Positions 25,455 to 26,360 of a DNA stretch of 64,000 bases are shown piece after piece; within the stretch, counting starts at the first letter, position 1; the number at the start of each line of letters is the position of its first letter. The translations under genes were made by a program, and so were the position numbers. This DNA comes from Candidatus Saccharimonadota bacterium. GTDB lineage: Bacteria; Patescibacteriota; Saccharimonadia; Saccharimonadales; Saccharimonadaceae. Below the pieces are notes generated by a model. The model was not told the origin of the DNA and did not search any database. It was given only the letters and a program-made list of their open reading frames with translations. The stretch is taken from positions 372,001 to 436,000 of the forward strand of contig JAUCSD010000001.1 of NCBI GenBank assembly GCA_030445245.1. The letters are read 5' to 3'.

Positions 25455-25731
25455 AACGCCCCACCTCAATAGATAGTGAACATCCTATTAATATCATAAA
25501 CTATTTTATATGACACGTAAATACTTCTATCTAGCGTATGTATCGTGCAGTTTTATTCATCTACATATTAAATTAGCCCACACTATGTGAATCAATTTAG
25601 CTGTAGTACTGGCTATATATTTTACTCATTTACATTTATCTTCTTTATGTTATAATCATACGCATTGTCGTAGCTTACAAAGTACGGCAGGCCCAGCAAC
25701 AAACCGATACTCACGAGTTAGGGTATTCACC

Positions 25732-26196
25732 ATGACGCTGTTCGACATCCACGTTATCGATCTTCGCACCCCTTGGAGACGTGCCCAGGATGCGATCGGC
25801 GACATTGCCATTGCAGCGATGTCCCGTACGCTCACCCAAGCCAACCTTCACGTGGATCGGCGTCACGCCATTAAGCCCCTCACCATGGGACCGTGGGCGC
25901 ATTCAACCGTATCGACCGTGGACACGCTCGAACGTGGGGTCTACACAACGGATCAGTTGCGCGTGCGGCTTGCGCTGACACGTAGCAACCAGGTCGGCGG
26001 GATCGGCTGGCAGATCAGCTTCACGATCTCGGGTCGCAGCCTCATGAACGCGCGCCAGCTCCTTCGCATTCAGCGAGCGCTGGAGACGATCGTTCACGAG
26101 CGAGAGCACCTGAGTAACCTGGTGATCACGCCCTATCTCGACCACATCGTGGTCAATATGAGCGTCCAGATCGGCGACCTCATCGAACCGATGTAG
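25732..26196 (+). CDS. unknown protein with hammerhead ribozyme in its 3' UTR
   Basis: This 154-residue soluble protein, clearly GC-richer than clpP and tig around it, has no motif I recognise (central TTDQLRVRLALTRSNQVGGIGWQISFTISGRS; C-terminal TPYLDHIVVNMSVQIGDLIEPM). Codon periodicity (G/C at third positions) supports translation. An extended -10 TGTTATAAT lies near 25650 and AGGGT precedes the ATG. After the stop come a perfect 13-bp hairpin, a hammerhead ribozyme and a terminator, all on the same strand. The 262-bp AT-rich gap on its left (25470-25731) holds only divergent promoter signals. Confidence 0.65.
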   Translation: MTLFDIHVIDLRTPWRRAQDAIGDIAIAAMSRTLTQANLHVDRRHAIKPLTMGPWAHSTVSTVDTLERGVYTTDQLRVRLALTRSNQVGGIGWQISFTISGRSLMNARQLLRIQRALETIVHEREHLSNLVITPYLDHIVVNMSVQIGDLIEPM

Positions 26197-26209
26197 ATCC
26201 TCTGACTTG

Positions 26210-26241: not shown

Positions 26242-26260
26242 AGTGGGACGGTTTGTTGCA

Positions 26261-26315
26261 ATACGTTCTATATCTATTGAGATATACTGACGAGTCTAAA
26301 AGGACGAAAACGTGT
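26261..26315 (+). ncRNA. type III hammerhead self-cleaving ribozyme
   Basis: All core elements occur in order: stem III 5' arm ATACGTT (26261-26267); cleavage-site C26268 in an allowed NUH triplet (UUC); stem I TATATCT/AGATATA (26269-26275 with 26280-26286, loop ATTG); CTGACGA (26287-26293, matching CUGANGA); stem II GTCT/GGAC (26294-26297 with 26302-26305, loop AAAA); GAA (26306-26308); stem III 3' arm AACGTGT (26309-26315). Stem III has seven pairs including the required A15.1-U16.1. A downstream palindrome ACGTGTATACACGT could compete with stem III. It lies on the mRNA strand of the 25732 gene. Confidence 0.88.
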
Positions 26316-26328
26316 ATACACGTACATT

Positions 26329-26360
26329 AAAAAACGACCTGTATTTCTCAGGTCGCTTTT
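26329..26360 (-). terminator. tig terminator (bidirectional)
   Basis: CGACCTG/CAGGTCG stem with a 7-nt loop; T-run GTTTTTT on the minus strand for tig and CTTTTAT on the plus strand for the 25732 transcript. Confidence 0.8.

Follow-up and report, generated by a model that had tools for sequence, protein, structure and literature searches.

Type III hammerhead ribozymes at the 3' ends of orphan-gene units in Patescibacteria, and a helix that joins leader to tail

Background

Type III hammerhead ribozymes (HHRs) have previously been reported in bacteria and in metagenomes (PMC6155905, PMC3088659). Bacterial HHRs have been found close to small ORFs that are not conserved and whose function is unknown (PMC6155905), an enrichment near the genes of Mu-like phages has been described (PMC10085705), and the role of HHRs in bacterial chromosomes has been called an open question (PMC6155905). 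The HHR considered here lies in a 64-kb stretch of Saccharimonadales DNA, the whole of which is referred to as the window. It has in common with the HHRs of Rfam family RF00008 the core, the three helices, and an open-ended stem III; however, the window copy scores below the family cut-off, and the HHR is joined to a helix between the leader and the tail of the transcript. Furthermore, unlike the known bacterial HHRs, those of Patescibacteria regularly lie at the 3' ends of solitary orphan genes and not near Mu-like phage or integrase genes. A full-text search of open-licence papers returned none relevant that joins hammerheads and Saccharibacteria. The host is a tiny episymbiotic bacterium, and its phylum is poorly understood.

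The name of RAGATH RNAs refers to their association with genes found close to hammerhead and twister ribozymes. HHR units with long leaders add a structured domain that resembles RAGATH-10 (RF03147): in three units, leaders with a TGACAAGCAGACA helix give whole-model, sub-threshold matches of 28.8-33.5 bits, the cut-off being 41.2 bits. The window leader gives no match to RAGATH-10 up to E 5, and, to judge from the matches in the other units, the 82-position RAGATH-10 model includes no pairing with an HHR-adjacent tail. Obelisks and other viroid-like RNAs have been described (PMC11922315, PMC12226432) that combine, as the HHR units do, a single ORF with a self-cleaving ribozyme and strong end-to-end pairing. 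In contrast to Obelisks, which are circular replicating RNAs that encode Oblin proteins, the HHR units are chromosomal and have promoters of their own and mutually unrelated ORFs. The gene cassettes of integrons, with their attC sites, likewise consist of unrelated small ORFs with a structured hairpin behind them and are sometimes arrayed, whereas each HHR unit has its own promoter and the units of one genome differ in their end sequences. No description of a helix between leader and tail was found in the literature searched, which did not include the original RAGATH papers. The ribozyme itself is of a known kind, and the end-paired unit looks new, with a partial overlap with RAGATH-10.

The hammerhead at 26261-26315

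The HHR occupies positions 26261-26315 of the plus strand, where it is recognised by its core, by Rfam, and by a model of the lineage described below. Stem III (26261-26267/26309-26315) has 7 pairs, one of them G.U, and is followed by C17 at 26268, after which cleavage is predicted. Stem I (26269-26275/26280-26286) has 6-7 pairs and leads into the CTGACGA core segment (26287-26293), stem II (26294-26297/26302-26305; 4 pairs, one G.U), and the GAA core segment (26306-26308), while A26309 and U26267 form the A15.1-U16.1 pair. All of the invariant core (C17, CUGANGA, GAA, A15.1-U16.1) is present, the three helices are correctly ordered, and stem III is open-ended. The original prediction of a complete type III HHR was exact in coordinates, strand, and core, with 7 and 4 pairs in stems III and II and 6-7 in stem I. 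With regard to a possible tertiary contact between the loops of stems I and II, TGTGTA and AAAA loops recur in the relatives; the window HHR has TATTGA (or ATTG) and AAAA, and is without the TGTGTA loop on stem I that is usual in the lineage.

Scoring against Rfam had been proposed as a check, and its outcome is divided. RF00008 matches the window HHR over its full length (E 5.4e-6 for a 251-base stretch, E 6.1e-6 in a whole-genome search), but the score of 34.3 bits falls short of the gathering score of 48.5 bits, which is a curation threshold and not a structural feature. Matches to RF00008 above 48.5 are found in only 2 of 151 genomes of the lineage, and the Rfam HHR model has zero matches in 14 well-known control genomes.

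Across relatives, the HHR helices carry pervasive compensatory changes. When 40 HHR matches from related genomes were aligned by sequence only, 93.4% of helix cells were paired, compared with 63.5% when columns were shuffled; covariation was 0.813 versus 0.230, a value reached in none of 500 shuffles, and there were 223 double changes versus 69. Controls in which the helices were slid gave pairing of at most 46% and covariation of 0.08-0.15. A score below threshold had been named as one half of what would refute the HHR; given the covariation in the relatives, it shows instead that Rfam sets its cut-off too high for these bacteria.

A lineage model built from the same 40 matches gives the window HHR 64.4 bits (E 2.2e-16) in a search of the window genome. 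It finds HHRs in 54 of 151 relatives from the same family or order, in more than 100 places in total, and in 48 of 380 genomes across the phylum. The 1.16-Mb window genome itself has four, the window copy and three more on the minus strand: G000:C1:299333-299387, with a 13-bp hairpin in the upstream leader region, and G000:C1:504719-504773 and G000:C1:858482-858541, both with a clear leader-tail helix. Thus, the single chromosomal HHR first reported from a reduced genome is genuine, but it is one of four there and part of a phylum-wide series. Of the first 80 loci found when one genome per species was scanned by pattern, at least 59 have names of the candidate phyla radiation (CPR) and 10 clearly have other names. 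By the evidence of its sequence, then, the window element is a genuine type III HHR rather than a chance match, and self-cleavage is predicted.

Parts of the window unit

The HHR forms the 3' terminus of a unit that recurs and comprises a promoter, a 5' leader, an orphan ORF, a GC-rich hairpin, and the HHR. In the window these parts all lie on the plus strand. The candidate promoter (25629-25656), TTTACA and TATAAT separated by 16 nt with TG ahead of the -10, was identified by its consensus match (11 of 12 positions) and would place the start of transcription at about 25663. The leader opens with a hairpin (TGTCGTA..TACGGCA, 25666-25689) that is seen in sequence and fold; the fold of the window leader barely exceeds shuffles (z -1.45). 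A putative, weak Shine-Dalgarno region, GAGTTAGGG, lies at 25715-25723, and a cofold predicts that in the closed form it would pair with 26199-26208. The ORF (25732-26196, 154 aa) has a GC content of 0.60 and a GC3 of 0.76, compared with a GC3 of 0.37-0.48 in the neighbouring genes. It has no homologue in 150 relatives, belongs to no Pfam or PHROGs family, and has no match in phages.

Both neighbours of this gene are on the opposite strand, in agreement with the earlier placement of the HHR in the 3' untranslated region (UTR) of a solitary gene. The 3' UTR folds well beyond shuffles (z -5.1), and the stop-adjacent hairpin of 13 bp that had been claimed is present in the sequence at 26210-26222/26229-26241, between the ORF and the HHR. 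The position of the HHR fits the further proposal that the predicted cleavage would leave an mRNA ending in a hairpin. Less straightforward is the terminator said to follow the HHR. An intrinsic terminator, T-rich on both sides, is detected on the plus strand at 26335-26355; however, by inspection the longer T-run is on the minus strand, and the terminator may therefore serve chiefly the trigger-factor gene, which is convergent.

It had also been suggested that a downstream palindrome makes cleavage conditional. This suggestion is partly supported. The palindrome, ACGTGTATACACGT (26310-26323, plus strand), is evident in sequence and fold, and in silico it does compete with stem III, which it displaces as soon as the folded RNA extends beyond the HHR by more than about 5 nt; at equilibrium, folding then favours the competing hairpin whether the leader is present or absent. 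However, inspection showed no similar palindrome downstream of the relatives' HHRs. The idea that the leader licenses folding of the HHR was rejected. Across units, predicted stem III formation is 0.16 for the HHR alone, 0.35 with its own leader, and 0.19 with a foreign leader, a weak own-leader effect (p 0.015-0.026), and for the window stem III there is none in a fold that takes in 25 nt downstream. Likewise discarded was a rod structure of the whole window mRNA, the ORF alone folding like shuffles (z -0.69).

A helix between leader and tail

The original prediction missed the main partner of the HHR, which is the leader at the 5' end of its own transcript. A leader segment, GCAACAAACCG (25696-25706, plus strand), is complementary through 11 perfect Watson-Crick pairs to CGGTTTGTTGC (26249-26259, plus strand), which ends one nucleotide before stem III; the helix is referred to as P1. 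The leader copy is the sole plus-strand occurrence of its sequence in the 64 kb, and at least 11 pairs with the window tail segment were reached by 1 of 5000 shuffled leaders. When leaders were permuted among units, own-leader complementarity was matched in 0 of 20000 cases in a Saccharimonadales set (49 units) and again in 0 of 20000 in a CPR-rich set (63 units), several records being common to both sets. The segment used was the 30 nt abutting the HHR, which replaced a tail of 45 nt; hybridisation energies with the longer tail gave p 0.0045, the signal being diluted by the GC hairpin.

Strong P1 helices have 9-17 bp and mostly lie 0-2 nt from stem III. A clear ungapped P1 (score of at least 9) is found in 18 of the 49 Saccharimonadales units and 17 of the 63 CPR-rich units and is lacking in over half of the units of both sets. 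In those units the ends may pair over a shorter or interrupted stretch or not at all. In a check of 19 units that was anchored by a leader motif and not by complementarity, most P1 positions were paired in all 19, with several Watson-Crick types. Where P1 pairs of the class are not Watson-Crick, G.U was found eight times and A.C once. Deviations of the G.U type point to an RNA helix rather than to DNA repeats. Many leaders (L154, L151, L133, L048, L087, L024, and others) also have a conserved 5'-terminal element, GTTGAG..stem..CTCCGAAGG, which comes after the promoter and 5' of P1.

A viral set considered as a third test of P1 was set aside, its apparent signal consisting mostly of palindromic hairpins (GTGTCTTCAAAGACAC) within the segment. 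IMG/VR contigs (L268, L270, L243, L223, L233) carry one to four type III HHRs after a hairpin of the GTGTCTTCAAAGACAC type, an arrangement related to, yet different from, that of the chromosomal units. A different arrangement again is seen in a Candidatus Parcubacteria contig (JANLIU010000041.1; L107:2474-6529), where ten HHRs, about 135-310 nt apart, form two clusters around a helicase-like gene. A small GGGG..CCCC hairpin directly precedes each HHR, and in many of the intervals there is a structured RNA repeat, about 80 nt long (GGTCGGAGC..CTTAAGTGCATTC..CTTAAGGCAGTGC), that has no Rfam match at threshold. This locus has the appearance of a series of non-coding RNAs that ribozymes would cut apart.

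Cargo and constraint

Nearly all Saccharimonadales HHRs have a sense ORF of about 140 aa upstream at a median gap of 79 nt, and a GC-rich hairpin lies between the two in most of the Saccharimonadales units inspected. Antisense ORFs, used as a control for gene linkage, included many chance ORFs and were uninformative. The approximately 116 HHR-linked ORFs fall into about 101 clusters and are mostly unrelated, some of the pairs being duplicate records; consequently, one RNA module serves many proteins.

In a syntenic pair of units from two species of one genus (L024 and L026), the leader is 94%, the tail 90%, and the HHR 98% identical, while the ORF is 60% identical in nucleotides and 51% in amino acids, with a dN/dS of 0.16. 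The ends of the unit are thus more constrained than the ORF. Silent sites are near saturation in the ORF and also in the neighbouring genes (pS 0.54-0.78 in the latter). It follows that selection strongly constrains the conserved ends and that the ORF is a genuine, if fast-evolving, gene.

Four HHR units, each running from a promoter of its own through leader, ORF, and hairpin to the HHR, stand in tandem in one relative at L033:5951-7889 (G025:C13), and their ORFs are only weakly related. Elsewhere, a small ORF resembling ubiquitin or SAMP2 recurs before the HHR (L006, G117:C15:39865, G098:C1:6198, L120:6630); in L006 it comes after genes that resemble JAB and E1 enzymes.

Models for the function of the unit

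In the model that we favour, to which we give a slightly better than even chance, the two ends of the mRNA are zipped to each other and the HHR trims it, so that no end accessible to an exonuclease is left. Transcription would begin just 5' of the terminal hairpin of the leader. The P1 segment of the leader would wait until the end of the message has been made and would then pair with the segment before the HHR, and the resulting helix would stack on stem III across a gap of 0-2 nt. The HHR would cut after C26268 and free the downstream RNA. In the product, a hairpin would cap the 5' end of the mRNA, and the 3' tail would be zipped to the leader and finish in a 2',3'-cyclic phosphate about 9 nt beyond P1. 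The window genome has a gene for PNPase; RNase R was not found there, and the RNB exonuclease domain is absent from this genome and from 58 of 61 genomes. With PNPase as the recognisable 3' exonuclease and no RNB-family enzyme, such a product would be very long-lived. PNPase is blocked by stable hairpins and by ends that lack a 3' hydroxyl; consequently, the closed mRNA should be stable. In many members, moreover, the Shine-Dalgarno sequence lies within or next to the zipper, and the closed form therefore probably limits translation initiation too. The sequences show the architecture and covariation of the HHR, the complementarity and position of P1, ends that are more constrained than the ORF, and cargo without common ancestry, whereas cleavage, stability, and the effect on translation are inferred; the weak own-leader effect on stem III also favours the model. 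Against it stand the sub-threshold Rfam score of the window HHR and its lack of the TGTGTA loop, the predicted predominance of the competing hairpin, and the many units in which no clear ungapped P1 is seen.

This last effect could be the main one. If so, the 3' tail would act as an anti-Shine-Dalgarno sequence that shuts the ribosome-binding site on the completed transcript, and the HHR would set the end of the tail or serve as a switch. The P1 leader strand includes the Shine-Dalgarno sequence in many compact units, and Shine-Dalgarno-like sequence is seen in the P1 5' strands of several (GAACAAGGGAGAAA, TGAACAAGGAG, CAGGGAGAGAC, GAGGAGAGGA); the G025 array has the arrangement GAGCAC-AGGAGTG/CACTCCT-hairpin-GTGCTC; and some leaders match RAGATH-10, with mutually exclusive helices adjoining the start codon. 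However, P1 lies 25 nt before the start codon in the window and more than 100 nt before it in the long-leader subfamily, and we regard translational control as the main function as rather unlikely.

It is improbable that the HHR serves chiefly as insulation, parting the transcript from downstream RNA in place of a terminator, with P1 of secondary importance. Such a role would suit units with a same-strand gene directly downstream (L011, L017, L019), as well as the lack of a T-run in the hairpin ahead of the HHR, but the window HHR does have a terminator downstream, and P1 and the conservation of the leader would be left unexplained.

Still less probable is a mobile cassette or selfish element, in which the paired ends would be terminal inverted repeats or recombination sites at the level of DNA. 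Similar ends around unrelated orphan cargo might be expected of such an element, as might units that lie in tandem or near one another (G025, L154) and an ORF with a GC content above that of its flanks, which is seen in 48 of 50 units. Yet the end sequences differ among the units of the window genome, the deviations in P1 are of the G.U type, and the L024/L026 pair has stayed syntenic. Integron-like cassettes, the first idea to come from the G025 array, were not supported by the end sequences.

Finally, a circular mRNA, whose paired ends and cyclic phosphate would favour ligation, possibly with a second ribozyme in the leader, is very improbable. In its favour are a geometry like that of engineered circularisation designs and the GTTGAG..CTCCGAAGG element that many leaders have conserved at their 5' end. 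Against it, primary 5' ends are triphosphates, Rfam finds no second ribozyme, and RtcB, present in 9 of 14 controls, is absent from all 151 relatives, which makes closure by this ligase unlikely.

Implications

Returning to an mRNA that is trimmed by its own ribozyme and closed at its ends, a broader proposal, which we hold tentatively and rate a little short of even, is that Patescibacteria have a general expression module: a zipping leader and an HHR-terminated tail would host unrelated, fast-evolving orphan genes and yield self-trimmed, end-closed mRNAs that are unusually stable or self-silencing. The recurrent anatomy of the units predicts a role for the HHR in finishing and closing the mRNA. 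Cultivable, genetically tractable Saccharibacteria exist (PMC10633639), and thus this role is testable, if cultivable strains carry the units. The HHR units mark a large class of Patescibacteria orphan genes with a common control module at the level of RNA, and this module provides a handle on genes for which homology is uninformative.
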